Positions 2,317-19,852 of a stretch of 56,320 bases of DNA are shown in pieces. The DNA is from Gemmatimonadota bacterium (GTDB lineage Bacteria; Gemmatimonadota; Gemmatimonadetes; Gemmatimonadales; Gemmatimonadaceae), in NCBI GenBank assembly GCA_016871895.1, contig VHBO01000011.1, forward strand, positions 1-56,320, in the 5' to 3' direction. Numbering within the stretch: the stretch's first letter is position 1; each line of letters begins with the position of its first letter. The notes beneath the pieces are model-generated. The model did no database searches. It was not told where the DNA came from and saw nothing but the letters and a program-made list of their open reading frames with translations. Position numbers and translations under genes: made by a program.

Positions 2317-2376
2317 GCGGGGCGCCGAGCCCCTCCGCGGGTGGTGGCTGGGCGCCGCCCCGGCGATCTTTCCCCG

Positions 2377-2784
2377 ATGGACCAGCCGACCCTCGCCCTC
2401 GCCGCGGACGCCCGCGAGCGGTTCCTGCTTGACATCGCCGAGGTCGTGCCCGACGCACGGCTCGCCGAGCTCCATTTCTTCCCGCCGCTGAGGCAGGGGG
2501 CGTTGGAGACGGGGGTCGCGGTCATCGCGGCGGAGCCCGAGGACCCGGCGCGGACCCGGCACGTCGTCTTCAGCGCCCGCTACCGCTGGACCCGGAAGGG
2601 CCCGGACCGTGGGAAGTGGGAGCACGAGGTGGTGGCGGAGGCCGACGCGCCGCTCATCACCGTCGAGGCGGTGGTGCAGGGGGTGAAGGCGCGCGCGCAC
2701 GAGATGGTGGAGCCCGAGCGGATGTCGGGCGACGAGGCGCGCACGCGGATCGCGGAGCTGCGGTGTCGGAGCACCCCGCAGTAG
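2377..2784 (+). CDS. Small acidic protein of unknown function
   Basis: This 135-residue soluble protein has no signal peptide or membrane segment, and I do not recognise its family. It is rich in Glu, Ala and Arg and has a WTRKGPDRGKWEHEV segment followed by a helical C-terminal half. The ATG at 2377 is preferred; an in-frame GTG at 2341 would add 12 residues that look like noncoding leader. Its last 22 bp overlap the start of the Fur-family gene, which suggests the two are co-transcribed and translationally coupled, possibly with linked roles in metal or peroxide response. That link is inference from position only. Confidence 0.7.
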   Translation: MDQPTLALAADARERFLLDIAEVVPDARLAELHFFPPLRQGALETGVAVIAAEPEDPARTRHVVFSARYRWTRKGPDRGKWEHEVVAEADAPLITVEAVVQGVKARAHEMVEPERMSGDEARTRIAELRCRSTPQ

Positions 2785-3215
2785 CGCGGTTCGTCGCCTA
2801 CCTCCGGGAGCAGAACCTCCCGGTGACGGCGCAGCGGTTGGCGGTCGCGGAGGCGCTGCTCACCTCGGAGCGGCATCTCTCCGCGGAGGAGGTGGCTGCG
2901 GAGGTTGCCCGCGGCGGGGCGCGGGTGGGGACGGCGACGGTCTACCGTACCATCGACACCCTCCTTGCGAGCGGGCTGCTCGTCGAGCGCGACTTCGGCG
3001 AGGGGTTCCGCCGCTTCGAGCCGGCGCGCGACATCCCGCATCACGAGCATCTCGTCTGTGACCAGTGCGGCCGCGTCGAGGAGTTCCGTGATGAACGCCT
3101 CGAGCGGATGACGACGATCGTAGCCGAGTCGCGTGGCTTCGCGCGGCAGCGGCATCGATTGGTGATCCACGGGATCTGTCGGGACTGCCAGCGGGGCGGT
3201 CCCCGGCGCACGTAG
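2763..3215 (+). CDS. Fur-family metal-dependent transcriptional regulator
   Basis: This 150-residue protein has the Fur/PerR/Zur layout. An N-terminal winged helix (about 1-80) carries the family's TVYRTIDTL recognition-helix sequence. The dimerisation domain has HHEH at 93-96 and two CxxC pairs, C99/C102 and C139/C142, which form the structural zinc site. Whether it senses Fe(II), Zn(II) or peroxide cannot be told from sequence. The start is taken as GTG at 2763, giving the usual family length; the frame stays open upstream without homology. It overlaps the preceding small gene by 22 bp. The next gene, ccdA, starts 63 bp downstream on the same strand, so the three may be one transcript. Confidence 0.93.
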   Translation: MSEHPAVARFVAYLREQNLPVTAQRLAVAEALLTSERHLSAEEVAAEVARGGARVGTATVYRTIDTLLASGLLVERDFGEGFRRFEPARDIPHHEHLVCDQCGRVEEFRDERLERMTTIVAESRGFARQRHRLVIHGICRDCQRGGPRRT

Positions 3216-3278
3216 CGCCGCGCGCCGCACCATCAATCGCCGCATCACTCGGCTCATCTCTCTCGCCAGGACCCCGCC

Positions 3279-4010
3279 GTGTCCGGATTCGAATCCCCCC
3301 TCTCGCTCGGCATCGCCTTCACCGCTGGGGTGCTCAGCTTCCTGAGCCCCTGCGTGCTGCCGCTCGTGCCGAGTTACGTGACCTTCATCACGGGGATGTC
3401 GCTCGAGGACCTGCGGCACACGCGGCGCGAGGCGATGGTGCACGCCGTCCTCTTCGTGATCGGCTTCTCGATGATCTTCCTGGCGCTCGGCGCGGGCGCG
3501 ACGGCCTTCGGGCAGCTGATGATCCGCAACCGCGATCTCATCAGCCGGATCGGTGGCGTGATGATCATCGCCTTCGGCCTCTACCTGCTCGGAGTGTTCA
3601 ACCTCGGGCTGCTCGCACGTGACACGCGGTTGCATCTGGCGAACAAGCCGCTCGGCTACTTCGGCACCGTGCTCGTGGGGATCGCGTTCGGCGCGGGATG
3701 GTCCCCGTGCATCGGCCCGATCCTCGGCGCGATCCTGACGATGGCCGCGAACGAGGGGGACCTCGGCCGGGGCCTCCAACTGCTCGGGGCGTACTCGGCC
3801 GGCCTCGCGGTGCCGTTCCTGCTGGCCGCGCTCGCGGTCGATCGGTTCCTCGACCTCTTCGCGCGGGTGCGACACCGGATGGTGTGGGTCAATCGCGTGG
3901 CCGGGGTGCTCCTGCTCTGCGTGGGGCTCCTGCTCGTGAGCAATCGGTTCACCGTGCTCTCGAGCTGGTTGCAGGATCTCACCCCGGCCTTCATCCGCGA
4001 CCGGATCTAG
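3279..4010 (+). CDS. ccdA: CcdA-type cytochrome c biogenesis / thiol-reductant transmembrane protein
   Basis: CcdA proteins pass reducing equivalents from cytoplasmic thioredoxin across the inner membrane, to keep apocytochrome c or other exported thiols reduced. The 243-residue protein has about six hydrophobic segments. It has the two family cysteines in the hallmark Ser-Pro-Cys contexts: LSPCVLPLVPSY (C25) and GWSPCIGP (C144). The start is GTG at 3279. No thioredoxin-like partner lies beside it, but the window encodes two periplasmic cytochromes c that would need such a pathway. Its TAG stop is interleaved with the stop of the convergent gene: the four bases CTAG at 4007-4010 end both frames, leaving no room for a terminator between them. 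Confidence 0.9.
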   Translation: MSGFESPLSLGIAFTAGVLSFLSPCVLPLVPSYVTFITGMSLEDLRHTRREAMVHAVLFVIGFSMIFLALGAGATAFGQLMIRNRDLISRIGGVMIIAFGLYLLGVFNLGLLARDTRLHLANKPLGYFGTVLVGIAFGAGWSPCIGPILGAILTMAANEGDLGRGLQLLGAYSAGLAVPFLLAALAVDRFLDLFARVRHRMVWVNRVAGVLLLCVGLLLVSNRFTVLSSWLQDLTPAFIRDRI

Positions 4011-4534
4011 AACTTCCAGCCCAGCACGATCGGCATCGAGTGCATCTCGGGGTCGAGCTGGATCGACTGGTAGCGCGCCTTGAGAAACCAACGCCCGCGG
4101 CCGACGCCGGCGCCGAAGGTGTAGGCGAGATCCGACTCGGCGTCGCTCCCCGACGCGTTGCTGTCCATCTGGTAGAAGCCGAGGCCACCGAGCAGGTACA
4201 CGCCCGTGGTCTGGACCGGGACGATCGCGCTCGCCATCACCCCGATCTGCGTCCAGTGCCCATCGCCGACGACGTCGGCGAGGTCGTTCGAGAAGGCGTA
4301 GCGAGCGTAGTCACCGCTGATGCGCGCGGTGAATCGGTCGGTCACGGGCATTTCGACCTGCGCGCCGATCACATAGCCGGTCTTGGCGGCATCGCCCATA
4401 TCCCCGATGGGGACGCCCGCGCCGAGCGTGACGGCGAAGCGGGGGGCGTCGCTCCGCTGGGCGGCGGCCGGTACGGCGAGCAGGGAGACGAGGGCCGTGA
4501 CGAGGGTGGCGACACGGACGGGGGAAGCGGACAT
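4007..4534 (-). CDS. Small outer-membrane beta-barrel protein
   Basis: This 175-residue protein starts at an ATG (4534) followed by a clear Sec signal peptide, with likely cleavage after an AAAQ-like site near residue 24. The mature part consists of alternating, aromatic-flanked beta strands (for example FAVTLGAGVPIGDMG, GVYLLGGLGFYQM, RGRWFLKARYQSIQ). It ends in a terminal Phe (VLGWKF), the usual recognition signal for the BAM machinery. It resembles small eight-stranded OmpA/OmpW-like barrels, but the ligand is unknown. It lies 88 bp downstream of the ABC transporter on the same strand, with a hairpin between them. Its stop shares CTAG with ccdA's stop on the other strand. Confidence 0.8.
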   Translation of the reverse strand: MSASPVRVATLVTALVSLLAVPAAAQRSDAPRFAVTLGAGVPIGDMGDAAKTGYVIGAQVEMPVTDRFTARISGDYARYAFSNDLADVVGDGHWTQIGVMASAIVPVQTTGVYLLGGLGFYQMDSNASGSDAESDLAYTFGAGVGRGRWFLKARYQSIQLDPEMHSMPIVLGWKF

Positions 4535-4562
4535 CGCGAGCTCCTGTGAGGGTGAGGTGTGA

Positions 4563-4582
4563 CGGGCGGACGATGCCGCCCG
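4563..4582 (-). terminator. GC hairpin between ABC transporter and barrel gene
   Basis: A perfect 7-bp inverted repeat (CGGGCGG, 6-nt loop, CCGCCCG) lies in the 88-bp gap. There is no U-tract, so it may be a weak or Rho-assisted terminator that lowers read-through from the ABC gene into the barrel gene. Confidence 0.45.
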
Positions 4583-4622
4583 GCGCCCTCTCCACTCAAT
4601 CAGCGTTTCGCCCGGTGCCCCG

Positions 4623-6398
4623 TCAGGCGCCGCCCGGCACTGCCGTCGGGCCCTCCGCAGCCGCGAGCTCCTCTTCGAGGCGCTGACGGTCGAGCAGCGT
4701 CCAATAGCGACCGCGCGCGGCGAGGAGCGTCTCGTGGCGCCCCTGCTCGACGATGCGCCCTTCATCGAGAACGAGGATCCAGTGCGCATCGCGCACCGCC
4801 GTGATGCGATGGCTCGCGATGATCGCGGTCCGGCCGGCGAGCGCCTCGCGGAGGCCGCGGAGGATGGCGGCCTCGGTCTGCGTGTCGACGGCGGCGAGGG
4901 CATCGTCGAGGATCACGACGGCGGGGCGGCGGGCGAGCGCGCGGGCGAGCGCGGCGCGCTGCCGTTGACCGCCGGAGAGGTTGACGCCGCGCTCCCCGAG
5001 CATCGTCTCCCAGCCATCCGGGAGCGCCTCGATGGTGTCAGTGAGTTGTGCGACTCCCGCCGCCCAGTGTGCGGCCTCGCCGTCGCCGGTGCCGTACTCG
5101 AGGTTCGCGCGGATCGTCTCACTGAAGAGCACGCTCTCCTGCGGGACGAAGCCGATCTCGGCGCGCAGGACGTGGAGCGGGATCTCGCGGAGGTCGATGC
5201 CGTCGAGGAGGATCCGCCCCCGTGTCGGGTCGGTGAGCCGCGGGAGCAGCTCGAGCAGGGTGCTCTTCCCGCTCGCCGTCGCGCCGACGATGCCGAGGGT
5301 CGTCCCGGCGGGGACGTCGACGGTGATGTCGTGCAGCACCTCGCGCGTGGTACCTGGATAGGTATAGCTGACCTGCTCGAGGGTGAGGCGCCGGCCGCCA
5401 CCGGCGGCGGGGAGCGGCGTGCCGGGCGCCTCGGCGTCGCGGAGCGTGGGCTCGGCGTCGAGGACGTCGAGCACGCGGCGCATTGAGGCGGCGCCGCGCT
5501 GGAAGAGGTTCGTGACCCACCCGAGCGCGATGAGCGGCCAGGTGAGGTTGGCGAGGTAGAGGCCGAACGCCACGAAGGTCCCGACGCTCATCCGCCCCTC
5601 GAGGACCATCCCGCCGCCGACGCCGAGGACGATGGCGGCGCCGAGTCCGGCGAGGAGGGTGAAACTCGGGTTGAAGAGCGCATTGAGTCGCGCGAGGCGC
5701 ATGTTCCGCGCGAGGTACTCGTCGCTCAGCGCGGCGAAGCGCGCGGACTCAGCCTCCTCCTGCGCATAGGCGCGGACGACGCGCACGCCCGAGAGATGCT
5801 CCTGCGTCATGGTCGTGAGGTCGCCGAACTGGGCCTGCACCCGCTCGAACCGGTCGTGCGTGGCTCGCCCGAGGGTCCACATCACCCACGGCAGCGGCAC
5901 CATCGGGAGGAGCGCGAGGAGGGTGAGGCGCGGGCTGATCTGCACCATATAGACGAGCGCGAAGAGCGCGCCGAAGATGGTGTTGGTGAGGTACATGATC
6001 GCCGGCCCGACGGCCATCCGGACGGCGCCGAGGTCGTTGGTGAGCCGCGCCATCACCTCACCGGTGCGGGTGCGGCCGTACCAGGCGGCGTCGAGGGTGG
6101 TGCACCGCGTGAAGGCGGCGTCCCGCAGGTCGGTCTCGACGATGCGCGAGACCCCGTTGAGGATCTCCCGCATCTGGAAGCGGAAGACCGCCATCGTGAG
6201 CGTGACCGCGACCATCGTCGCGCCGATGCGGACGACGGCGGCGACGCCCGCCCCGCTCCCCAGCGCATCGATCGCCTGGCGGAGCAGGGTGGGGATGACG
6301 CTGTTGATCGCGGTGGAGAGGACGACGCAGGCGAGCCCCGCCGCGAACCGCCAGCGGTACGGCCGCATCCACGGGAGCAGCCGGAGGAGGAGGCGCAT
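4623..6398 (-). CDS. ABC exporter half-transporter, MdlA/YheI type
   Basis: This 591-residue half-transporter has an N-terminal six-helix exporter domain (about 15-310) and a C-terminal ATPase domain. The ATPase has an intact signature LSGGQRQR starting at 474, but two active-site features are non-standard. Walker A reads GATASGKST (372-380), with Ala in place of the third conserved Gly. Walker B ends in D498-D499, with Asp where the catalytic Glu normally sits (ILDDALAAVD). This is the pattern of the degenerate subunit in heterodimeric exporters such as MdlA or YheI/BmrC. No MdlB/YheH-type partner is in the window. It lies 32 bp downstream of the gamma-glutamyltransferase gene, probably in the same operon. 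Substrate unknown. Confidence 0.93.
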   Translation of the reverse strand: MRLLLRLLPWMRPYRWRFAAGLACVVLSTAINSVIPTLLRQAIDALGSGAGVAAVVRIGATMVAVTLTMAVFRFQMREILNGVSRIVETDLRDAAFTRCTTLDAAWYGRTRTGEVMARLTNDLGAVRMAVGPAIMYLTNTIFGALFALVYMVQISPRLTLLALLPMVPLPWVMWTLGRATHDRFERVQAQFGDLTTMTQEHLSGVRVVRAYAQEEAESARFAALSDEYLARNMRLARLNALFNPSFTLLAGLGAAIVLGVGGGMVLEGRMSVGTFVAFGLYLANLTWPLIALGWVTNLFQRGAASMRRVLDVLDAEPTLRDAEAPGTPLPAAGGGRRLTLEQVSYTYPGTTREVLHDITVDVPAGTTLGIVGATASGKSTLLELLPRLTDPTRGRILLDGIDLREIPLHVLRAEIGFVPQESVLFSETIRANLEYGTGDGEAAHWAAGVAQLTDTIEALPDGWETMLGERGVNLSGGQRQRAALARALARRPAVVILDDALAAVDTQTEAAILRGLREALAGRTAIIASHRITAVRDAHWILVLDEGRIVEQGRHETLLAARGRYWTLLDRQRLEEELAAAEGPTAVPGGA

Positions 6399-8954: not shown

Positions 8955-8961
8955 TAAGTTA
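8955..8961. promoter_or_regulatory. Shared divergent -10 element, leaderless geometry
   Basis: The 7-bp near-palindrome TAAGTTA reads TAAGTT toward murQ and TAACTT toward the barrel gene. Each hexamer ends exactly 7 nt before the ATG it faces (8968 and 8948). With normal -10 to start-site spacing, both mRNAs would begin at or within a base or two of the AUG. Confidence 0.55.
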
Positions 8962-8967
8962 CACCCC

Positions 8968-9885
8968 ATGCTCGATCCCCGGGTCACCGAGCGGCGGAAC
9001 CCCCGCACCGCCGACATCGATCTCGCCTCCCCGCTCGAGATCGTCGATCTGATGTCGGCCGAGGATCGCTCGGTCGCCGACGCCGTGGCCACACAGCGTG
9101 AGCCGATCGCGCGGGCCGTCGCGCTGATCGAAACGGCGTTCCGCGAGGGGCATCGGCTCCTCTACGCCGGCGCGGGCACCTCGGGACGGCTCGGCGTACT
9201 CGACGCGTCGGAGTGCCCGCCGACCTTCGGCAGCGATCCCGCGCTCGTGCGTGGCATCATCGCGGGTGGCACGGCCGCGATGTTCCGGTCGCAGGAGGGG
9301 GCGGAGGATGCCCCGGAGGGCGGGCGCGCCGACCTCGAGGCGGAGGGGCTCGTCGCGGGGGACGTGGTGGTCGGTATCGCTGCGAGCGGGACCACGCCGT
9401 ATGTGCGAGGCGCACTCGCCCACGCGCGCGCTGTCGGGGCGCACACGGTGCTCGTCGCCTGCTCGCCGCCGCCTCCCGAGTTCGCGGAGACCGTCGACGT
9501 GCTCATCCTGCCGATCACCGGGCCGGAGGTGGTGACGGGCTCCACGCGGCTCAAGGCGGGCACCGCCACGAAGATGGTGCTGAACATGCTCACCACGGGC
9601 GCGATGATCCGCGTGGGGAAGACGTACGGGAACCTGATGGTGGACCTGCAGGCGACGAACGCGAAGCTGCGGGATCGCGCGGAACGCCTGCTGATGGTGA
9701 CCTGCGGGCTCGGCCGGGATGAGGCGCGCCTCGCGCTCGACGCTGCCGACGGACGCGTGAAGGTCGCGATCGTGATGCGCCAACTCGGGATCGATCGCAC
9801 GACGGCGCTCGCGCGGCTTGACGCCGCGGGCGGGATCGTGCGGCGCGTGCTACCGGGCCCGCCGCCCCCGGTGAGCGGCGCGTGA
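8968..9885 (+). CDS. murQ: N-acetylmuramic acid 6-phosphate etherase
   Basis: MurQ removes the lactyl ether from MurNAc-6-phosphate to give GlcNAc-6-phosphate, a step in recycling cell-wall amino sugars in the cytoplasm. The 305-residue length matches the family. The SIS fold shows the sugar-phosphate loop GAGTSGRLG. The two family catalytic Glu positions are present: E82 in ASECPPTF and E113 in EGAED. The start is ATG at 8968; a TANNNT element 7 nt upstream suggests a leaderless mRNA, and no Shine-Dalgarno is visible. Its TGA overlaps the GTG of anmK (GTGA at 9882-9885), so the two are translationally coupled. AnmK supplies MurQ's substrate. Confidence 0.96.
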   Translation: MLDPRVTERRNPRTADIDLASPLEIVDLMSAEDRSVADAVATQREPIARAVALIETAFREGHRLLYAGAGTSGRLGVLDASECPPTFGSDPALVRGIIAGGTAAMFRSQEGAEDAPEGGRADLEAEGLVAGDVVVGIAASGTTPYVRGALAHARAVGAHTVLVACSPPPPEFAETVDVLILPITGPEVVTGSTRLKAGTATKMVLNMLTTGAMIRVGKTYGNLMVDLQATNAKLRDRAERLLMVTCGLGRDEARLALDAADGRVKVAIVMRQLGIDRTTALARLDAAGGIVRRVLPGPPPPVSGA

Positions 9886-11009
9886 CCGTCCTCGTCGGGG
9901 TGATGTCGGGCACCTCGCTCGACGGCGTCACCGCGGCCGTGGTGCGCTTCGTCGAGGACGAGGTGGGGCGCGTGACGCCGCAGCTCCTCGCCCATCGCAC
10001 GCTCGGGTACGCGCCGGCGATGCGGGACCGGCTCGCCGCGGCGCTCGTCGGCGCCTCCCCCGCCGAATACACCCGACTCGATTTCGACCTCGGTGCGGTG
10101 CTCGCGGACGCCGCCGTCGCGGCGATCGCCGAGGCGGGGGTCCAGCGCGATGAGATCGCCGCGATCGCCTCGCACGGGCACACCGTCTGGCACGAGCCCC
10201 CGCACGCGACGTGGCAGTTCGGACAGCCGGCGGTGATCGCCGAGCGCACGGGACGGCCGGTGATCGCCGACTTCCGTGTGCGCGACGTCGCCGCGGGGGG
10301 ACAGGGCGCGCCCCTCGTGCCAATCGCCGACGCGATGCTCTTCGCCGCCGACGATCGCTGGCGCCTGCTCCAGAACCTCGGCGGGATGGGGAACCTCACC
10401 GTGGTCCCGCCGCGCGGTGCACTGGAGGGAGTGCGCGCCTTCGACACCGGCCCCGGCGTCGCGGTCCTCGACGGCGTGACGCGGGTGCTCCGCCCGGCGC
10501 TGCCGTACGACGTGGACGGTCGACTCGCTGCGCAGGGGACGCCGATCGAGCCCGTCCTCGAGGCGCTCCTCGCGGATTCCTGGTTCGCCGCGCCGCCACC
10601 GAAGTCGACCGGGCGCGAGCGCTACACCGCCGCGTACATCGCGGACGTCATCGCGCGCTGTCGCGCCGCACGCCCCGACGCCACCGACGCGGACATCGTG
10701 AGCACCGCCGCCTGGCTCACCGCGCGGAGCATCGGTCTCGCCGTCGAGTGCTTCGTCCCGGAACCGGTCGAGGAGGTGCTCCTCTCCGGCGGTGGTGCGC
10801 ACCACCCCGTGTTGCGCGAGGCGATCGCGATGACGCTCGCGCCGCGCACCGTTCATCGGTTCGACCGGCTCTACTTCGACGGTGATGCGAAGGAGGCGGT
10901 CGCCTTCGCCTTCCTCGGCTGGCTCCATCTGCAGGGACGGCCGGGCAACGTGCCGACCGCCACCGGCGCGCGCGGCCCGCGCGTGCTCGGGACGTACACC
11001 CCCGCGTGA
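9882..11009 (+). CDS. anmK: Anhydro-N-acetylmuramic acid kinase
   Basis: AnmK hydrolyses and phosphorylates 1,6-anhydroMurNAc to MurNAc-6-phosphate, which MurQ then uses. The 375-residue protein has the ATP-binding start VGVMSGTSLDGV, the GHTVWHEP segment, FDTGPGVAVLDGV and a C-terminal LSGGGAHHPVL, all in the expected order. The GTG start at 9882 is fixed by the 4-bp GTGA overlap with murQ. A second GTGA overlap (11006-11009) joins it to the next gene. The order murQ-anmK-GH3 is a complete-looking cassette for anhydro-muropeptide sugars, except that the GH3 member has lost catalytic residues. Confidence 0.96.
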   Translation: MTVLVGVMSGTSLDGVTAAVVRFVEDEVGRVTPQLLAHRTLGYAPAMRDRLAAALVGASPAEYTRLDFDLGAVLADAAVAAIAEAGVQRDEIAAIASHGHTVWHEPPHATWQFGQPAVIAERTGRPVIADFRVRDVAAGGQGAPLVPIADAMLFAADDRWRLLQNLGGMGNLTVVPPRGALEGVRAFDTGPGVAVLDGVTRVLRPALPYDVDGRLAAQGTPIEPVLEALLADSWFAAPPPKSTGRERYTAAYIADVIARCRAARPDATDADIVSTAAWLTARSIGLAVECFVPEPVEEVLLSGGGAHHPVLREAIAMTLAPRTVHRFDRLYFDGDAKEAVAFAFLGWLHLQGRPGNVPTATGARGPRVLGTYTPA

Positions 11010-12472
11010 TCCATCCGCTCGCGGGACTCCTGGTCCCTGAGCTCTGGTGGGATGCCCGCGCGGGGTTTGGACACCTCGACGCGCTCATCGAGGATGCGCT
11101 CGAGATCGGCGTAGGGGGCTTCGTGGTCCGCGATGGCCCGCGCGAGGCGGTGCAGGCGCTGACGCAGGCGCTCCGGCGGGAGGCGCCGCATCCGCTCTTA
11201 CTCGCGTCGGAGGTGGAAGCCGGCGTCGGCGGGTCTTTCGCGACGGGTACCGCGCTCCCGCCACTTGGCGCGCTCGGCGCGCTGCGCGACGCGGACGCGT
11301 TCCGCCGCGCGGCGAAGCTGACCGCACGCGAGCTCGGGGCGCTCGGTCTCAATTGGGCGCTGGCCCCCGTCGCGGAGCTTGCGGGGCATCCCGCGAACCC
11401 TGTGCTTGGTGCGCGTGCCGCGGGCGACGACGCGCAACGGGTGGCGGAATGGCTCGTCGATTGGGTCGATGCCTGTCAGGCCGAGGGGATTCTCGCCTGC
11501 GCGCGTGGCTTCCCCGGGGCGGGGCGTGCGGCGGTCGATCCGTGGGCGGATGGCGCCGCCGATGGGGTCGCGGTCGACGCGGACGCGGCGCTGCTCTGGG
11601 CGACCGACCTCGTCCCGTATCGCGGGCTCACCGATGCCGGCGTCGCGAGCGTCAGCGTGTCGCCCGTCGCCTTTCCGGGGCTCGACCGCAGCGGCGTCCC
11701 CGCCTGCCACTCGGAGGCCCTCGTGACGACCTTCCTGCGGGGTGAGCTCCGGTACGACGGCCTCATCGTCGCCGAGGCGACGCGGTCGCCCACCGCCCGG
11801 CGTGGTGGCGGTGAGGGGCCGTCGGTCGTGGCCGCCGTGCGCGCCGGCTGTGATCTCATCCTGGCGCCGCACGATCTGCACGAGGTGCTGACGGCCCTCG
11901 AGGCGGCGAACGATGCGGGCGCGCTCGACCTCGAGGCACTCGAGGCGATGCGGGCGCGTCGACGCTTCTGGGCCGACTGGGCCGCCCCGCGCCCGATGCG
12001 GGAGCCGACGCTCGACGATGTGCTCTGGGCGCGGCAGGTGGCGGACCTCCTCGTGCACCCGGTGCGCGGCGTCATCCCCGCGCTCGACGCGGCCCCGGAG
12101 GTGGTGTTGTTGGACGATGCGTCTCGCGGGGGCTGGGCGCCGCCTGCGGGCGCACCGCTGCTCGAGGCGCTCCGCGCGCTCGGTCTCGCTCCGCGGCTCG
12201 TCGAGGCCCCCACGGCCGACGGACGCGGGCCGGTGCTGGTGGCCCTCTTCGGCGGGCCCGCGGCCACCGCGGGCCGCGCGGCGTGGCGCCCGGAGACGCT
12301 CGCCGCCATCTGCACGCTACACGAGGGTGCGCGGGCATTGCACCGCAGTCTCGTCGTCGTGGCGTTCGCGCCGCCTGCGCTCGCGGCGGCGGTGCCGGAC
12401 GCACCGCACGTGCTCTGTGCGTGGGGTGCGGCGCGTGCGATGCAGGACGGGGCGGCCCGCCGGCTCGCCTGA
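11006..12472 (+). CDS. GH3 / NagZ-like protein with degenerate active site
   Basis: The 488-residue protein follows the NagZ-type glycoside hydrolase family 3 barrel, including the NPANPVLGARAAG region. In a recycling operon one expects NagZ, the beta-N-acetylglucosaminidase that frees anhydroMurNAc. The catalytic motifs are eroded. The family KHFPGHG-xxx-DSH becomes R167-G-F-P-G-A172-G ... D178-P-W180, losing the His of the acid/base dyad. The nucleophile-Asp region reads YDGLIVAEATRS, with Glu257 at the Asp position. The DQEGG substrate motif becomes EVEAG. The region after about 320 resembles the GH3 C-terminal domain. The start is GTG in a GTGA overlap with anmK. It may be a pseudoenzyme or have a different activity. 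Confidence 0.85.
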   Translation: MIHPLAGLLVPELWWDARAGFGHLDALIEDALEIGVGGFVVRDGPREAVQALTQALRREAPHPLLLASEVEAGVGGSFATGTALPPLGALGALRDADAFRRAAKLTARELGALGLNWALAPVAELAGHPANPVLGARAAGDDAQRVAEWLVDWVDACQAEGILACARGFPGAGRAAVDPWADGAADGVAVDADAALLWATDLVPYRGLTDAGVASVSVSPVAFPGLDRSGVPACHSEALVTTFLRGELRYDGLIVAEATRSPTARRGGGEGPSVVAAVRAGCDLILAPHDLHEVLTALEAANDAGALDLEALEAMRARRRFWADWAAPRPMREPTLDDVLWARQVADLLVHPVRGVIPALDAAPEVVLLDDASRGGWAPPAGAPLLEALRALGLAPRLVEAPTADGRGPVLVALFGGPAATAGRAAWRPETLAAICTLHEGARALHRSLVVVAFAPPALAAAVPDAPHVLCAWGAARAMQDGAARRLA

Positions 12473-12475
12473 CGC

Positions 12476-13840
12476 TCAGCGCAGCGCGGCCGTCGCGTCG
12501 CCGGTGAGCTGGGCCGCGAGTCGCGCCGAGGGGACAGTGTAGATGATGCGCCCGCCGCTCTCCGCGGCCGCGCCGTAGAGCACGCCGATCACGAGCCCCC
12601 GCGCGTCGAACACCGGAGAACCGCTGGAGCCCTGCGCAGCATAGGCGTCGAGCTGGATGTTCTCGGCGAGGGTCTTACTCACGGTGCCGATGCCGAGCGT
12701 CGCCACGGGGCGGAGCTGGTCGATCGCCCCTTCGTTCCCCGCCGTCGCCGTCCCGAGCGGAAAGCCGAGGATCGCCACCGGGTCGCCGAGCTTCACGCCC
12801 TCACTGTCGCGGGCGATCCCGTTCACGGTCGGGTACGGGCCTGGGCGGACGAGCCGCAGCGTGGCGAGTTCGTCGGTGGGGCTCACGTACACGATCTCCG
12901 CCATCCGCCATTCGCCCTGCGTCCCTTCGAACGCCACCGCGACGCGCGCGGCGCGCACGCCGGCAGCCGACTGCACGACGTGGCGGTTGGTGACGATGAG
13001 GCCGGTCGGGAGGATGTTGAACCCGGTGCCACTCTCCGCGCGCCCGTCCGGCATCTCCACCGCGACGAAGACGACGGCGGCCTTGTTCGCGGCGAGGATC
13101 GCTGAGTAGTCGGTGCGCGCGAAGGAGGCGGTGCGCCGCTGCCGCTCACGCATCTCGGCGGCGAGCGCGGTCACGTTCCCGCCCGCGGCCGACCGGGCGC
13201 GCAGCTCGCCGGTCATCCGGTCCATCTCAGCCCGGGCCTCCTCGAGTGCCGCGTCGGCGACGCCGGTCTCCGCCAGTCGCGCCGAGAGCGCACGCGCCAG
13301 GGAATCGTTCGACGCGATGAGCTGAGCCACCTGCGACCGCCCCGCCCGTTGCGTGCGCATCACCACGCCAACGGCGAGCCCGCCGCCGACGATCACGAGG
13401 ACACCGAGGCCGACGATCATCCGGCGCAACGTCCCGGTCTGCTGCTGTACCGCCTCGGCGATGCGCGCCTCGGTGTTCTTCGGGGTCATCGCCGGCCGGT
13501 CCTTCGTCGTGCCGACCCGACCCATCGTGGCCGCGGCGAGATCGACGCGCACCTTCGGGCCACCGAGGCCGAACTCGATCACGTCACCATGCGCGAGGAT
13601 GTGTGTGCCGCCGAGCTTGAGGCCGTTGACGTAGGTGCCATTCGTCGAACCGAGGTCGACGAGATGCGCCTCCTCGCCGTAGATGCGGACCTCGGCGTGG
13701 CGCGAAGAGGCGTCGCGGTCGCGCTCAGCGTCGAGCGCGAGGTCGTTGCTCGGGTGCCGTCCGATCGTGATGACGGCTCGTTCGAACCGATCCATCCGGC
13801 CGGCGTACGCGCCGTGGAGGAAGGTGAATTCGACGACCAT
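12476..13840 (-). CDS. FHA domain - membrane helix - coiled coil - trypsin-like serine protease
   Basis: The 454-residue protein begins with a forkhead-associated domain (about 1-100) that binds phosphothreonine; its motifs are IGRHPSND, SSRH (45-48) and GSTNGTYVNG. A membrane helix follows (141-161), then a predicted coiled coil (about 170-245). The C-terminal S1-type protease domain has a recognisable triad: H287 in NRHVV, D323 in TDELATL and S406 in GSSGSP. The topology puts FHA in the cytoplasm and the protease in the periplasm. It is the last gene of an operon with a kinase and a PP2C phosphatase. The start is ATG 13840, in a TGATG junction with the PP2C stop; GTG 13843 is also possible. 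Its stop lies 3 bp from that of the convergent GH3 gene. Confidence 0.93.
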   Translation of the reverse strand: MVVEFTFLHGAYAGRMDRFERAVITIGRHPSNDLALDAERDRDASSRHAEVRIYGEEAHLVDLGSTNGTYVNGLKLGGTHILAHGDVIEFGLGGPKVRVDLAAATMGRVGTTKDRPAMTPKNTEARIAEAVQQQTGTLRRMIVGLGVLVIVGGGLAVGVVMRTQRAGRSQVAQLIASNDSLARALSARLAETGVADAALEEARAEMDRMTGELRARSAAGGNVTALAAEMRERQRRTASFARTDYSAILAANKAAVVFVAVEMPDGRAESGTGFNILPTGLIVTNRHVVQSAAGVRAARVAVAFEGTQGEWRMAEIVYVSPTDELATLRLVRPGPYPTVNGIARDSEGVKLGDPVAILGFPLGTATAGNEGAIDQLRPVATLGIGTVSKTLAENIQLDAYAAQGSSGSPVFDARGLVIGVLYGAAAESGGRIIYTVPSARLAAQLTGDATAALR

Positions 13841-15003
13841 CACCAGAGGAACCAGAGCGCGAGGAGCAGGGCGCCGACCCCGAGGAGCGCGAGCGCGGTC
13901 TTGGGGCTGAGGAGCGCCTCGTCTTCGGCCTCAAGCATCTCGCTCGTACGCCGCCGCGGGCGGTCCGACGGCTCCAGCTCGTCCGCGCTGCCCTTCGAGT
14001 CGCCGGCCGGTGCGTGTGACGTCGAGGCCGCGGTCGTTCCCGCGGCGCTGTGCGTCGTCGGTGCGGCCTCGCCGAGCGCGGCGGTTGCGGCAATGGCCGC
14101 GAGCGAGGCGCGATCGACACGCTGCGTGGCCCGCGCCGCCTGCTCGCCGACATACGGTCGGTGCCCCGGCGGCACCGCCGCCTGTGTCGGGAGCGCGTCG
14201 CCCTCCATCCGGGCGGCAACCACCGTGATGTTGTCGGGGCCGCCGGCGGCGTTCGCCCGGGCGATCAGCGCGGCACACGCGGCACCGAGGTCCGTGGCAC
14301 CGGCAATCTCCTCGGCGATCTCTGACGCGCGCACCTGGCCAGACAGCCCATCCGAGCAGAGGACGAGGACGTCGCCGCGGCAGAGGTGTTGCGCCGTGAG
14401 GTCCACCCGTACCCGCGGCTCCGGCCCCAACGCCTGCAGGATGATGTTGCGGCGTTCCGAGACTGACGCCTCCTCCTCCGTGAGTTCGCCCGCGTCGATC
14501 AAGCGCTGCATTAGCGACTGATCCTTCGTGAGCTGCGTCGCGACCCCGGCGCGCACGAGGTAGGCGCGGGAGTCGCCGACCTGCGAGAGGAAGGCCCACG
14601 GGCCAAGGAGGCCGACGAGCGTCGCCGTCGTGCCCATCCCCTTCATCCCCGGCTGGCTCCGCGCGTGTTCGTGGATGCGCTGGTTCGCAGCCTCCGTCGC
14701 CTCGCGCAGCGCGTGCGCGAAGTGGTCGGCATCATCGGCGTGTGAGGCCATCCACCGGGACCGCATCACGTCAAGGACGGTCTCGATGGCCATCGCGCTC
14801 GCCACCTCACCCGCTGCGGCGCCCCCCATCCCGTCGGCCACCATCAGGAGGGCGCCGCGTGGCCCGAGCGGCGCCGCGGTCACACCGGGGGGCGCACCAT
14901 CGGCGGAGAGGTCGGCGACGAGGAAGGCGTCCTCGTTGTGGTCACGCATCCGCCCGACATCGGTGCGCCCGGCGATGGTGATCGTGATTCCCTCGGTCGT
15001 CAC
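13840..15003 (-). CDS. PP2C-family Ser/Thr phosphatase with C-terminal membrane anchor
   Basis: This 387-residue protein has the PP2C metal-site motifs in order: RDHNEDAF, VADGMGG, GDSRAYLV, CSDGLSG and GGPDNITV. The catalytic domain occupies about 1-255. A low-complexity linker leads to a hydrophobic tail helix ending the protein (ALALLGVGALLLALWFLW), so it is tail-anchored and faces the cytoplasm. It probably reverses phosphorylation by the kinase encoded just upstream. The GTG start at 15003 forms a GTGA overlap with the kinase stop and has a G-rich ribosome site a few bases upstream; GTG 15021 is the alternative. The downstream protease starts at the base where this gene ends. Confidence 0.94.
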   Translation of the reverse strand: MTTEGITITIAGRTDVGRMRDHNEDAFLVADLSADGAPPGVTAAPLGPRGALLMVADGMGGAAAGEVASAMAIETVLDVMRSRWMASHADDADHFAHALREATEAANQRIHEHARSQPGMKGMGTTATLVGLLGPWAFLSQVGDSRAYLVRAGVATQLTKDQSLMQRLIDAGELTEEEASVSERRNIILQALGPEPRVRVDLTAQHLCRGDVLVLCSDGLSGQVRASEIAEEIAGATDLGAACAALIARANAAGGPDNITVVAARMEGDALPTQAAVPPGHRPYVGEQAARATQRVDRASLAAIAATAALGEAAPTTHSAAGTTAASTSHAPAGDSKGSADELEPSDRPRRRTSEMLEAEDEALLSPKTALALLGVGALLLALWFLW

Positions 15004-16724
15004 GGCGCGCCCCCACCGCACTGCATCACGTCGGTGGCGCGACGTGCGAGCTGCACCCGGGCCGCCGTCGCGTGACGCGCGATGACCTGCTTCGCCGCGG
15101 CACAGGCGCCGTCTTGGTCCTCGAGCGCGGTGTACGCGATCATCTGCACGTAATACGACTCGGCGAGGGGCTGGCCGGAGAGGCGCGGCTGTAGTGCGGC
15201 GAGTTCGCGCAGCACGCGGGCGCCGTTTCCGCCCTGCGCCTCGCGCAGGGGGGTCTGGAGGCGCGCGGCCGACTCCGCGTCCGAAGGCTCGGCTGAGGTC
15301 GTCGGCGTCGGGTCGGGCGGTACGGCGGTCGTCGTCCCCCCCGTCGTGCCACCGCCGGTCGTCAGGTTCCGCGCATCGGTCCGACCGCCGTCGGTGCGTC
15401 GCGCCGGGTTCTGAGCGGGGGCAACGGTGGGGCCGGTCGAGGTCGGCGCGGTCACCGGCGCACCGGGGGTCGTCGGCGCGGGGACCACCGTGGAATCGCC
15501 CGAGGGGGCGGCCGTCGCACCGCCCCCGACGCCGAGCTTCCAGGCGAGCCCGGCGACAAGTAGCGTCGCGCCGATCCCGCCACCGATGAGTGGTGCACGC
15601 GACCGCCCGCCCGCTACCGGCGCGGGGGCCGCCGCCGGCGTCGCGTCACGCGCGCCGGCGCGCGTCCCGGCCCGCGCGCCGGCGGCGCCCCCCGGCCGCG
15701 CGACGCGGGTCGACGGAACCTCCGCGGCACTGAGCACCATCGTCCCCGCTTCGGCACTCGGCCCGTCGGGCAGGAGGGCGCAGGCCGCCGCGAACTCTCG
15801 CCCGAACTGCGCCGCGCTCTGGTAGCGGTCCGTCGCATCGCGGGCCAGCGCGCGGTCGAGGGTGGCCTGCAGCTCGGCGGGCCACGCGACCTCGGGTCGC
15901 ACCTCCGCGAGCGTACGCGGCAGATCGGTGAGGCGCATGATCATCGCCTCCTGCGCCGAGTTCGCCGCGAACGGAAGGGCGCCGGTGAGGCAGTTGAAGG
16001 CGACGAGCCCAAGGGCGTAGATGTCGGAGCGACCGTCGAGGCGATCCCCGGCGAGTTGCTCCGGGCTCATGTACTCCGGCGTTCCGACGACGAGCCCGGT
16101 CTTCGTCACCTTCTGCGCGTCACTCGAACTCGCCTTCGCGATCCCGAAGTCGACGACCTTCACGAGGTCGGAGCCGTCACGGTTTCGTGCGACCATGATG
16201 TTGTCGGGCTTCAGGTCCCGGTGCACGATTCCCGCGTCGTGCGCGACCTGCAGCGCGTCGGCCGTCTGATGCACGAGGCTTCCGGCTCGGCTCGGTGCGA
16301 GCCCCCCCGCCTGCTCGACGACGTCGGTGAGCGAGGCGCCCTCGATGAATTCCATCGCGAGGTAGATCGTCCCGTCAGGCGTCTCGCCGAAATCGTAGAT
16401 GCCGCAGACGTTCGGGTGGTTGAGCCGCGAGGCGTTCGCCGCTTCGCGATTGAAGCGCGCGATCGCGTCGGGGTCCGCATTCATCCCCGGGTTCATCACC
16501 TTGAGTGCGCTCTTCCGGCCCATCTTCACGTGCTCGGCGAGATACACCGTCCCCATCCCGCCGGCCCCGAGCTTCTTGAGGATGTGATAGCGGTCGGCAA
16601 CGACGGTGCCGAGGAGGTCGCCCTGGCCGGTGGCCGACCGCAGCGCCGTGCCATCACGCGGACAGAAGCGCTCGGAGAGAGGATACTCGCTCCCGCAGGT
16701 CGGACAGATCTTTTGGTCGCTCAC
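15000..16724 (-). CDS. Transmembrane Hanks-type Ser/Thr protein kinase
   Basis: The 574-residue protein opens with a ribbon-like motif, CPTC (C7, C10) and CPRD (C21), whose expected fourth Cys is Asp. The kinase domain follows (about 45-310): Gly loop GAGGMGTV, Lys75, catalytic HRDLKPDN at 168-175, DFG at 192-194 and the GTPEYMSPEQL segment. After a linker there is one membrane helix (about 379-400). The Pro/Thr/Gly-rich exterior ends in a helical, TPR-like tail. The start is taken as GTG 16724, because the upstream in-frame sequence is Arg/Pro rich and covers the promoter. It heads an operon with PP2C and the FHA-protease, a full write-erase-read set for phosphothreonine. Confidence 0.94.
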   Translation of the reverse strand: MSDQKICPTCGSEYPLSERFCPRDGTALRSATGQGDLLGTVVADRYHILKKLGAGGMGTVYLAEHVKMGRKSALKVMNPGMNADPDAIARFNREAANASRLNHPNVCGIYDFGETPDGTIYLAMEFIEGASLTDVVEQAGGLAPSRAGSLVHQTADALQVAHDAGIVHRDLKPDNIMVARNRDGSDLVKVVDFGIAKASSSDAQKVTKTGLVVGTPEYMSPEQLAGDRLDGRSDIYALGLVAFNCLTGALPFAANSAQEAMIMRLTDLPRTLAEVRPEVAWPAELQATLDRALARDATDRYQSAAQFGREFAAACALLPDGPSAEAGTMVLSAAEVPSTRVARPGGAAGARAGTRAGARDATPAAAPAPVAGGRSRAPLIGGGIGATLLVAGLAWKLGVGGGATAAPSGDSTVVPAPTTPGAPVTAPTSTGPTVAPAQNPARRTDGGRTDARNLTTGGGTTGGTTTAVPPDPTPTTSAEPSDAESAARLQTPLREAQGGNGARVLRELAALQPRLSGQPLAESYYVQMIAYTALEDQDGACAAAKQVIARHATAARVQLARRATDVMQCGGGAP

Positions 16725-16808
16725 ACACGCTCCGGACGGACGGGCCTCGAGGCCGCCGGCGGGCCCCGCTGGCGCGTGCCCCGCGCCCGCCCGGACCGAC
16801 GACGTACC

Positions 16809-16826
16809 GAGCCGAATATACGGCTC
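16809..16826 (-). promoter_or_regulatory. Inverted repeat enclosing a TATATT -10 element, kinase promoter
   Basis: On the minus strand a perfect 6-bp inverted repeat (GAGCCG ... CGGCTC) exactly encloses TATATT. It lies about 90 nt before the kinase start, in an otherwise G+C-rich 206-bp divergent region. A dimeric regulator bound here would cover the -10. The 10-mer CCGTATATTC recurs upstream of the M20 gene at about 29154-29163. Confidence 0.5.
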
Positions 16827-16914
16827 CACGCGGAAGGGCCGGAAGACGCACGTCGGGTGTGGCGCGGGGTGACCATCCGGTGTCGGTGCGCCCGGTGCGA
16901 GGCCCGTCGGCCGA

Positions 16915-16927
16915 CGATAGACTATCG
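16915..16927 (+). promoter_or_regulatory. 13-bp palindrome containing a TAGACT -10 element
   Basis: CGATAGACTATCG is a perfect 13-bp palindrome (6-bp arms, central A). It contains TAGACT at 16918-16923, which ends exactly 7 nt before the ATG at 16931. This fits a leaderless promoter that may also be an operator. Confidence 0.5.
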
Positions 16928-16930
16928 GCG

Positions 16931-19852
16931 ATGCTCGGGCCGATGCGCGGACTCCTCGCCGTTGGATGCGTCGCGATCGCGTCGGTCGCCGCGGCGCAGG
17001 CCACCGTGCGCCCCGATCTCGCGTGGCAGGCACTTGAGGCCCCCCACCTGCGCGTGGTGTTCGAACCCGCACTCGAACCGATCGCCCGACGGGTGGTCGT
17101 CGTCGCCGAGTCCGCGTACGTCGCCCTGGCGCGCGAACTCACGCCGCCCCGCGGTCGTATCGATCTCATCCTCGCCGACAACGTCGATTACGCGAATGGC
17201 GCGGCGACGCCCTTCCCGTCGAACCGGATCGTGCTCTACGCCCGCCCGCCGGTGGAGCAGCTCGCGCTCCGGCCGCACGAGGATTGGATGCGACTCCTCG
17301 TCACCCACGAGATGGCGCACATTTTCCATCTCGACCGGGTGCGCGGCCTCTGGGCGCTCGGTCAGCGCGTGTTCGGGCGCGCCGCGCCGCTCTTCCCGAA
17401 CGCGTATGCTCCCTCGTGGGTCCTCGAGGGGCTGGCGGTGCACTACGAGTCACGCCTCGGCGGCGGCGGACGTCTGCGCGGCAGCGAGTTCCCCGCCGTC
17501 GCGCGCGCCGCAGCGCTCGACGGGGTTCTGCCGACCCTCGACGCTCTTTCCGCCGACGCGCCGCGCTTCCCGCTCGGCCACACCGTGTATGTGTATGGCG
17601 CGTTCGCGATGACGCGCGGCGACACCACGGTGATGCGGCGCTACATCGAGGAGTCGAGCACCCGGCTCTTCGTCTCGCGGTTGGATGCCCGGGCGCGTGT
17701 CGCCTTCGGGCTCTCCTTTCGCGCCCACTGGGAGGCGTGGCGAGATTCGGTCTCCCGGGACGCGGCGGGGCTCCCCGAGGCGCCAACCGTCTCGGTCCGC
17801 TCCCGTGAGGGGTACACGGCCCGGTATCCACGCTTCGTGGACGACACCGTGCTCCGCTTCGTCGCCGACGAGGGGCGGCGTGTCCCGGGCTTCTATGAAA
17901 CGCGAGAGGCCGGCCGCGCGCGGCGGCTTGGGCGCCGGAACTCCGTCGACGTGAGCGCGCTCGCGGGGGCGACCACCAGCATCGCTGCCGAGCTGGATTA
18001 CGTCGACCCGTACACCCTGCGGTCCGAGCTCTATTTGGAGCGGGATGACGCCGAGGGCGGTCGCCGGCGGTTCAGCGACGGCCAGCGACTCACGCAGCCG
18101 GACGTGCATCGCGGGTCGGGGTACGTCGTCGCGGTGCGGACTCGGCCGGGGACCACCGATCTTGTGACGCTCGAGGGCCCTGAGGCGCGGGAGCGCCCGC
18201 TCGCGCTCGGGTCGCTGGATGAGACGTGGGGGGATCCGCGGTGGTCGCGCGATGGGGCGCGGATCGCCGCGGTCCGGTGGCGACGCGGGGGGACGCTCGC
18301 GATCGTCGTCCTCGATATCGCCGGGGCGGCTCGGATGACCTTCGCGCCGCGCGCGCAGGTCCCCGGGTGGCGCACCGTTGTCTCGTCACCCGTCTGGGAG
18401 CCGGGGGACACCACGCTCCTCTTCGTGAGCGATCACGAGGGACGCGCGATGGTGTATCGTGGCGACGTGCGGACGGGGGCGATGGGACTCGTCTGGGCGA
18501 CGCGGACCGCGCTGCAGACGCCGGATGTCTCGCCGAGCGGGGCGCGGATGGCGGCGGTCGAATTGCGCGGTGACGGCTTCCACGTGGTGACGCGCGAGAC
18601 GCCGGTTGTGCCGCTGCGCGCCGAGCCATCGGGGGCGGGGGACTCGGTGGCGCCTCCGCTGATGGCGTCGGATGCGGAGGGGGCGGCCGTGCCATATGAG
18701 CCGGCGGGTGAGCTCGTCCCGACTTGGTGGCTGCCAGTGGCGGGGCCATCGGGGCCCGGGAGCTGGTCCCTCGGGGTCATGACGAGCGCACGCGACCTCG
18801 TCGGGCGGCACGCATACGCGTGGACGTGGGCGCGAGATCTGGAGCGCCCGGAGGTCTCGTCGACCTTCTCGTATCAGTACGCCGGGTTCGGGAATCCGGT
18901 GGTGGGGGTGACCTATGCGAGTGCGTGGCAGCACCTCCCGGTGCGGCAGTCGGATGGGCGTGTCGCGGGATGGCTCGGCGAACGAACGCGTCGCGGCGGG
19001 GTCCAGGTCACGCGGCAGCGGATCGGTGTGCGGTGGAGTGGGTGGGCCTCCATCGGCGGGGAGGTGGAGGCCGTGGATTATCGGACCGACCCCGAGCCAT
19101 TGCGGGCGCGGCTGACGAACCCGCGGTTCCGCGAGACGACCGTCTCACCGGTTGCGCAGCTCTCGACCGGATTCAGCACGATGCAGCGGCCGACGCTCAG
19201 CGTGTCGGTGGAGGATGGGGTGACCGCGAGTGCGGTCCTACGGCGTCGGTTCGGCGGGGCGGAGGGGGGTGGGGATGTGGGGGAGGCGATCGGGGCGGCG
19301 ACGGGCGCGATCGCCGTGCCGTGGCCCGGATATGCGCGCGCGGTGCTCGCGGGCCGCGTGGCGGGCGGGTGGACCGCGTCAGAGTCGCAGACCGGATTCT
19401 CCGTCGGCGGAGTGAACGGCACCTCGGTATCGCTGCTGCCGGGTCTGGTGATCGGTGGGTCGCCACGGACCTTCGGGGTGCGCGGGTTCGACACCGGCGC
19501 GCTGAGCGGGACGCGTGCGGCCGTGACGAGTCTCGAGGCGCGGCTGCCCTTGGCGCTGGTTGGTCGCGGGGTCCGCGGTACGTCGGTGTTCGTGCAGAAG
19601 GGATCGCTCGCGGCGTTCGTCGATGGTGGGGCGGCGTGGTGCGACCGGGCGGTGGCGGGGTCGCTCGTCTGTCCGGCGCCGGTGGTGCCGCGGCGATGGC
19701 TCGGCTCGGTGGGTGGCGAGCTCGGGGTGGACGCGGCGCTGCGGTACGACGTCGTGTATCGGTTCCGCTTCGGCGCGGCGCATCCGGTGCGCGGGCTGGG
19801 GACGGCGCCGTCGCGAGTAGTGCTCTACTTCTCGATGGGGAGCACGTTCTGA
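16931..19852 (+). CDS. Secreted HExxH protein with beta-propeller and C-terminal beta-barrel
   Basis: The 973-residue protein starts with a Sec signal (GLLAVGCVAIASVAAAQA). A domain with HEMAH at 126-130 and a downstream Glu-rich helix (WVLEGLAVHYES) matches the layout of MA-clan metallopeptidases. From about 300 to 600 there are WD40/TolB-like propeller blades with repeated SPSG/SRDGARIA-type turns. From about 610 to the end there are long alternating strands, and the protein ends in Phe (YFSMGSTF), as in surface-antigen-type barrels. It may thus be anchored in the outer membrane with a peptidase-propeller part. The ATG at 16931 is chosen for signal-peptide position and the TANNNT element 7 nt upstream; ATG 16943 is possible. 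Substrate unknown. Confidence 0.82.
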   Translation: MLGPMRGLLAVGCVAIASVAAAQATVRPDLAWQALEAPHLRVVFEPALEPIARRVVVVAESAYVALARELTPPRGRIDLILADNVDYANGAATPFPSNRIVLYARPPVEQLALRPHEDWMRLLVTHEMAHIFHLDRVRGLWALGQRVFGRAAPLFPNAYAPSWVLEGLAVHYESRLGGGGRLRGSEFPAVARAAALDGVLPTLDALSADAPRFPLGHTVYVYGAFAMTRGDTTVMRRYIEESSTRLFVSRLDARARVAFGLSFRAHWEAWRDSVSRDAAGLPEAPTVSVRSREGYTARYPRFVDDTVLRFVADEGRRVPGFYETREAGRARRLGRRNSVDVSALAGATTSIAAELDYVDPYTLRSELYLERDDAEGGRRRFSDGQRLTQPDVHRGSGYVVAVRTRPGTTDLVTLEGPEARERPLALGSLDETWGDPRWSRDGARIAAVRWRRGGTLAIVVLDIAGAARMTFAPRAQVPGWRTVVSSPVWEPGDTTLLFVSDHEGRAMVYRGDVRTGAMGLVWATRTALQTPDVSPSGARMAAVELRGDGFHVVTRETPVVPLRAEPSGAGDSVAPPLMASDAEGAAVPYEPAGELVPTWWLPVAGPSGPGSWSLGVMTSARDLVGRHAYAWTWARDLERPEVSSTFSYQYAGFGNPVVGVTYASAWQHLPVRQSDGRVAGWLGERTRRGGVQVTRQRIGVRWSGWASIGGEVEAVDYRTDPEPLRARLTNPRFRETTVSPVAQLSTGFSTMQRPTLSVSVEDGVTASAVLRRRFGGAEGGGDVGEAIGAATGAIAVPWPGYARAVLAGRVAGGWTASESQTGFSVGGVNGTSVSLLPGLVIGGSPRTFGVRGFDTGALSGTRAAVTSLEARLPLALVGRGVRGTSVFVQKGSLAAFVDGGAAWCDRAVAGSLVCPAPVVPRRWLGSVGGELGVDAALRYDVVYRFRFGAAHPVRGLGTAPSRVVLYFSMGSTF

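Follow-up and report, generated by a model that had tools for sequence, protein, structure and literature searches.

NagZ-like GH3 domains are known also outside peptidoglycan recycling: Ngs1 of Candida albicans has such a domain, has lost the His residue of the catalytic dyad and acts as a GlcNAc sensor, and according to PMC5063960 it retains the GlcNAc-binding residues D74, R145 and K175-H176. AmpG is described (PMC13046382) as the importer of GlcNAc-anhMurNAc-peptides in E. coli and Caulobacter. Neither a NagZ pseudoenzyme nor a NagZ from a Gemmatimonad was found in the open-access literature searched, which does not prove their absence. Our analysis concerns a window of 56,320 nucleotides (the whole stretch of DNA that was analysed) from a 2.28 Mb Gemmatimonadota genome (G000), in which the position of nagZ in a murQ-anmK operon is occupied by a GH3 gene of unusual sequence (Table 1). 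As argued below, its product is probably a NagZ pseudoenzyme retained for a non-catalytic role, likely as a partner of AnmK or MurQ.

Table 1. Features of the operon and of the GH3 protein in the window
Feature	Position	Strand	Evidence
murQ, N-acetylmuramic acid 6-phosphate etherase	8959..9885	+	TIGR00274, 366 bits vs cut-off 302
anmK, anhydro-N-acetylmuramic acid kinase	9882..11009	+	PF03702, E 6.3e-94; NF007148, 407.5 bits vs cut-off 387
GH3 gene, putative NagZ-derived pseudoenzyme, final operon gene in the window	11006..12472	+	PF00933, E 2e-41; orthologue in 17/17 genus genomes searched
Degenerate DxERG motif, EVEAG, residues 69-73	11210..11224	+	Alignment; Asp69 in 98% of canonical orthologues
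Degenerate catalytic loop, residues 166-184, RGFPGAGRAAVDPWADGA, with 4-residue insertion; canonical KHFPGHGRTxxDSH	11501..11557	+	Alignment
Nucleophile codon, Glu257 replacing Asp	11774..11776	+	Alignment
Residues 331-357, past the barrel domain, with conservation gained in the genus (REPTLDDVLWARQVAD...VHPVRG)	11996..12076	+	Entropy 0.55 vs mean 1.15

The GH3 gene starts with GTG and encodes 488 aa. The GTGA overlaps by which the initial annotation had joined it to murQ and anmK can be read directly in the sequence, at 9882-9885 (murQ/anmK) and 11006-11009 (anmK/GH3), and AnmK and MurQ each score above an NCBIfam equivalog cut-off. The membership of the third protein in GH3 was confidently identified with the profile of the N-terminal barrel (PF00933, 142.9 bits, cut-off 27), and the solved structures closest to it in sequence are those of GH3 beta-N-acetylglucosaminidases (e.g. 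3sql and 6k5j). On the NagZ equivalog PRK05337 it scores 100.5 bits, below the cut-off of 207; since the canonical family orthologues also fall below this cut-off (164-192 bits, 4/4), the test is weak on its own. The nearest named record is a protein of the Gemmatimonadota MAG LOR9m-Oct20 (87% identity), in a search of named genomes that yielded four loci, two of them from the same genus. An AlphaFold2 model of the protein, computed with three further rows, has a mean pLDDT of 38, too low for the model to be usable, and no output or effector domain was recognised in the protein by Pfam. The operon faces a convergent cluster (12476-17072, minus strand) whose genes, judged by eye, may encode an FHA/trypsin-like protease, a phosphatase of the PP2C type and a Ser/Thr kinase that includes a zinc-ribbon-like stretch.

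Alignment with the family orthologues revealed that the canonical motifs DxERGAG, KHFPGHGRTxxDSH, TAH and (S/T)DAxxM correspond in the window protein to EVEAG, RGFPGAG..DPW (residues 167-173 and 178-180), VSP and AEATRS. The motif changes reported in the initial annotation (EVEAG, RGFPGAG..DPW and Glu257) are therefore real, and their extent was even understated, as the canonical Lys167-His168, His220 and Met261 are also gone; of the sequence text quoted there, only NPANP is incorrect, the actual letters being HPANPVLGARAAG. Histidines are present at positions 3, 23, 62, 128, 235, 289, 292, 351, 439, 446 and 468, and since there is none between residues 128 and 235, a shift of the catalytic His to a nearby position, which had been considered as a possible objection, is excluded. 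The protein thus lacks the His of the Asp-His dyad of NagZ and has Glu257 for the Asp nucleophile, while of the GlcNAc-binding set (Glu69 and Arg167-Gly168 in the window protein) only Arg137 is kept. We infer from these replacements that it is catalytically inactive; the loss of catalytic residues in a gene under purifying selection (see below) is the hallmark of a pseudoenzyme.

The canonical motifs are absent from all orthologues in the genus (0/17). In 14/17 the dyad His, the nucleophile Asp or both are gone, and the remaining three (L007, L010 and L011) retain a DPH dyad and the Asp and have lost the PGHG His; at residue 257, 11 of the 17 sequences have Asp, 3 have Glu and 3 have Pro. The place of the gene is conserved together with the gene itself: in 16/17 genomes anmK, on the same strand, immediately precedes it, and the 17th locus lies at a contig edge. 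Assembly error or contamination was rejected as an explanation, since the same state recurs in genomes assembled into 1 and 3 contigs (G016 and G004).

Among 92 family orthologues, which come from the part of those listed that was fetched, 52 are canonical, 16 keep the dyad and the nucleophile with other changes, and 24 are without one or both, a class that includes five sequences scored as lost because they were unparsed by the motif pattern (L091) or poorly aligned in the loop (L089, L095, L096 and L102). Fragments (L127, L139, L141 and L128) and the truncated L123 were dropped before this count, and L034 and L039 are duplicates of L049 and L058. In the outgroup, comprising two sister families (n=20), all 20 sequences have the D-x-H dyad together with the nucleophile Asp, DSH occurs in 19/20, and murQ and anmK precede the GH3 gene in 19/20 loci (anmK alone in one, at a contig edge). 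Because the outgroups keep dyad and nucleophile, the canonical state is ancestral. In a tree computed with the motif columns excluded and rooted with 8 of the 20 outgroup rows (L102, the long branch of g28, was left out), the window genus is nested within canonical lineages and is one of six maximal non-canonical clades, the others being part of g20, g19, g9, g16/g17/g31 and g23. At least five changes of the canonical state are required, all of them forced by well supported branches, and the tree indicates that the lineage started from an active NagZ, with five or more separate degenerations since.

The gene can also be missing altogether. The analysis of 40 further loci around anmK identified GH3 in 18, left no room to tell in 2, and detected none within at least 2.3 kb downstream of murQ and anmK in the other 20; as the murQ-anmK pair persists in these 20 loci, it needs no such GH3 in general. 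In L123 a single, truncated frame of 281 aa is left. Depending on the lineage, the operon GH3 is canonical, altered, dead or gone. Four loci of g5 (L122, L124, L125 and L126) keep AmpG in a murQ-anmK-ampG operon that lacks the GH3 gene.

The genomic context of the change was analysed with respect to muropeptide import and to other NagZ genes. AmpG was not detected in the 17 genus genomes with the TIGR00901 profile, which matched 5/14 control genomes, nor with a family AmpG protein as the query (0/17, in a set without a positive control). Matches with E < 1e-40 were found in 21/148 family genomes, often as the next gene after GH3 (g5 and g7), which yields the order murQ-anmK-nagZ-ampG. In the classified rows AmpG co-occurs with canonical GH3 in 16/52 cases vs 0/40 for all others (Fisher 4e-5, a value inflated by closely related rows and uncorrected for ancestry). 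Loss of AmpG is neither sufficient for nor strictly coupled to the change of GH3, because 36/52 canonical rows are without AmpG and the four g5 genomes have AmpG without an operon GH3.

A second NagZ-type gene with intact motifs, for which the initial annotation had suggested a search, is present on contig C13 of G000, where L083 encodes (1942-5247, minus strand, and 4720-6177, plus strand) a GH3-GH3_C-beta-lactamase fusion and a divergent NamZ exo-N-acetylmuramidase. The fusion is found in 17/17 genus genomes and its motifs are intact in all 13 copies read (12/13 by the pattern; L023 reads LTDAMDM). The G000 copy carries a lipobox-like AIAC, and such a motif was identified by a crude pattern in 11/13; the fusion is probably an exported lipoprotein. 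NamZ is present in 14/14 genus genomes sampled, and the two proteins may together cleave muropeptides outside the cytoplasm. As the sole cause of the loss of the operon enzyme, the second NagZ was rejected, since it is near-universal and does not discriminate between the classes (canonical rows 45/52, lost 23/24 and altered 15/16, scored at a threshold of our own choice, E < 1e-80, with three genus genomes outside the sample judged from a separate search). The third GH3 of the genome (L103, 3632-5485, plus strand, contig C36), with a GH3_C domain and the motifs KHWIGDG and SDWDG, appears from these motifs to be a glucosidase-type enzyme rather than a NagZ. A Hydrogenedentota protein (L063, 5215-7452) exhibits a degenerate GH3 domain without KHFPGHG, followed by apparent LysM repeats; this may be a further GH3 without catalysis that is linked to the cell wall.

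Despite the loss of its motifs, the gene is under purifying selection. Estimates of dN/dS, approximate as they were obtained by simple counting with dS up to about 1, are 0.095-0.204 for GH3 and 0.075-0.142 for anmK in six genus pairs, and 0.053-0.131 for GH3 in nine canonical pairs. The ratio of GH3 to AnmK distances has a median of 2.1 in the genus (120 pairs), whereas the canonical genera span 0.59-1.89 and g23 stands at 0.59. Simulated neutral change of the window gene introduced 3 to 6 stops on average at a distance of 0.25, and random mutation to a distance of 0.5 left 0/300 copies free of stops with either base composition. These values indicate that the protein of the window genus is maintained, under a constraint weaker than in most canonical genera, whereas in g23 the constraint is strong despite the changed PGHG and DSH. 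The constraint has also been relocated. In the genus the mean column entropy is 1.15 and that of the loop 166-184 is 1.20, while residues 331-357 are at half the mean; in five canonical sets (means 0.46-0.71) the loop is at 0.05-0.25 and residues 331-357 at 0.39-0.83, i.e. 0.85 to 1.7 times the set mean. New invariants have appeared, namely Pro179 (17/17), Trp198, Phe321, Glu333, Thr335, Leu336, Leu340, Arg343 and Arg486. Synonymous divergence at 331-357 is ordinary (pS 0.49 vs 0.56), which rules out constraint at the DNA level, so the signal is one of the protein.

These data bear directly on the possibility of slow decay, according to which the gene would be a functionless nagZ relic, in frame and folded owing either to a recent loss of catalysis or to the harm that an unfolded product would do. 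The raised dN/dS, the distance ratio of about 2, the absence of GH3 from 20 loci of related genomes and the truncated frame of L123 are all in keeping with such a relic, but the frame is open in 17/17 genomes although the identity of orthologues falls to about 50%, several stops would be expected from the neutral simulation, and the new invariants argue for acquired constraint; we regard decay as unlikely. The view of the initial annotation that function has changed rather than plainly decayed thus gains from the open frames and purifying selection in all 17 genomes, though the fast evolution of GH3 (~2x AnmK in the genus) also fits partial relaxation.

The protein might instead still be an enzyme, with catalysis or specificity remodelled around Asp178 and Asp/Glu257 and perhaps acting on another sugar. 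Asp178 is indeed conserved in 17/17 orthologues and Arg137 in 88%, DPH and Asp257 are kept together in 3/17, and the parallel lineage g23 (DPH/DVH/DAH), with its low distance ratio, offers an example of what may be an altered working site. Yet the genus shares no single set of catalytic residues, as position 257 is also occupied by Pro (3/17) and Glu (3/17), the dyad His is replaced in 14/17 and the Lys-His pair is changed, which makes an active enzyme distinctly improbable here; for the lyase-like chemistry proposed in the initial annotation no positive evidence was found, and Pro at the nucleophile position speaks against it. In g23 itself (L051, L065, L073, L081, L087, L090, L092, L132, L133 and L134) the PGHG His and the DSH Ser are changed, and the first Asp of DxE is mostly Glu, yet evolution is slow, which suggests an altered enzyme or specificity rather than decay. 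An Ngs1-like sensor that binds GlcNAc or muropeptides without hydrolysis has a precedent in Ngs1 itself (PMC5063960), but is very unlikely, since the equivalents of its D74 (E8/D3/N2/P2/A1) and K175 (R8/M4/K3/S1/L1) vary within the genus, some members lack the His as well and Pfam recognised no output domain. The same drift of GlcNAc-binding residues disfavours a simple sugar sensor, and with it any use of the old pocket for the binding of muropeptide or anhydro sugars that had been put forward for the window protein, Arg137 notwithstanding.

Retention of a NagZ pseudoenzyme for a non-catalytic role is thus the reading that we prefer. The starting point would be a cytoplasmic, active NagZ encoded with murQ and anmK, in an arrangement that would predate the divergence of families in the order. 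In the ancestor of the genus NagZ may have become dispensable as an enzyme, because no AmpG is recognisable and the second NagZ with NamZ could cleave the glycan outside: without AmpG, GlcNAc-anhMurNAc-peptides would not enter the cytoplasm by that route, and cleavage would take place outside it, followed by uptake of single sugars. The active site was probably lost stepwise, with the PGHG His and the DSH Ser changed before the dyad His and, in some lineages, the nucleophile, an order suggested by the intermediates seen. What purifying selection preserves would most likely be a structural or regulatory partner of the co-translated AnmK, or of MurQ; AnmK is a candidate because its gene adjoins and overlaps in translation, and the regulator of AnmK/MurQ envisaged in the initial annotation would be compatible with the data, although the persistence of murQ-anmK in the 20 loci without GH3 counts against a general need for such a partner. 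A bolder version, in which NagZ has joined the machinery that processes anhMurNAc in the cytoplasm as a non-catalytic subunit, has gained in residues 331-357 an interface that probably contacts AnmK, and has met a similar fate repeatedly among Gemmatimonadota after the move of muropeptide cleavage out of the cytoplasm, is speculative and can be offered only tentatively.

The operon gene can be traced from a motif-intact NagZ via altered forms and dead ones to its deletion, in a direction set by the outgroups, and could show the route from a recycling enzyme to a pseudoenzyme. Its annotation in these genomes as NagZ (beta-N-acetylhexosaminidase) would mislead pathway reconstruction, and if the role of a partner were shown, AnmK or MurQ would gain an unrecognised regulator.

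Compared with NagZ (PRK05337/NF003740; PDB relatives 3sql, 6k5j and 4gyj), the window protein belongs to the same fold family, has the same anmK/murQ operon context and is orthologous to motif-intact NagZ-like proteins of sister genera, but is changed at the Asp-His dyad, the PGHG His, the Lys-His pair, the Asp of DxE and the nucleophile Asp. It shares a NagZ-type GH3 domain (about 36% identity over the barrel) with the NagZ-beta-lactamase fusion of the same organism, which in contrast has intact motifs, PF00144 and probable export. Unlike Ngs1, which combines a GlcNAc pocket with a GNAT domain, the window protein has lost pocket residues, these not being conserved in the genus, and carries no recognised effector domain; what the two have in common is a NagZ-like domain without the catalytic His, which in Ngs1 has been retained for a non-catalytic role.
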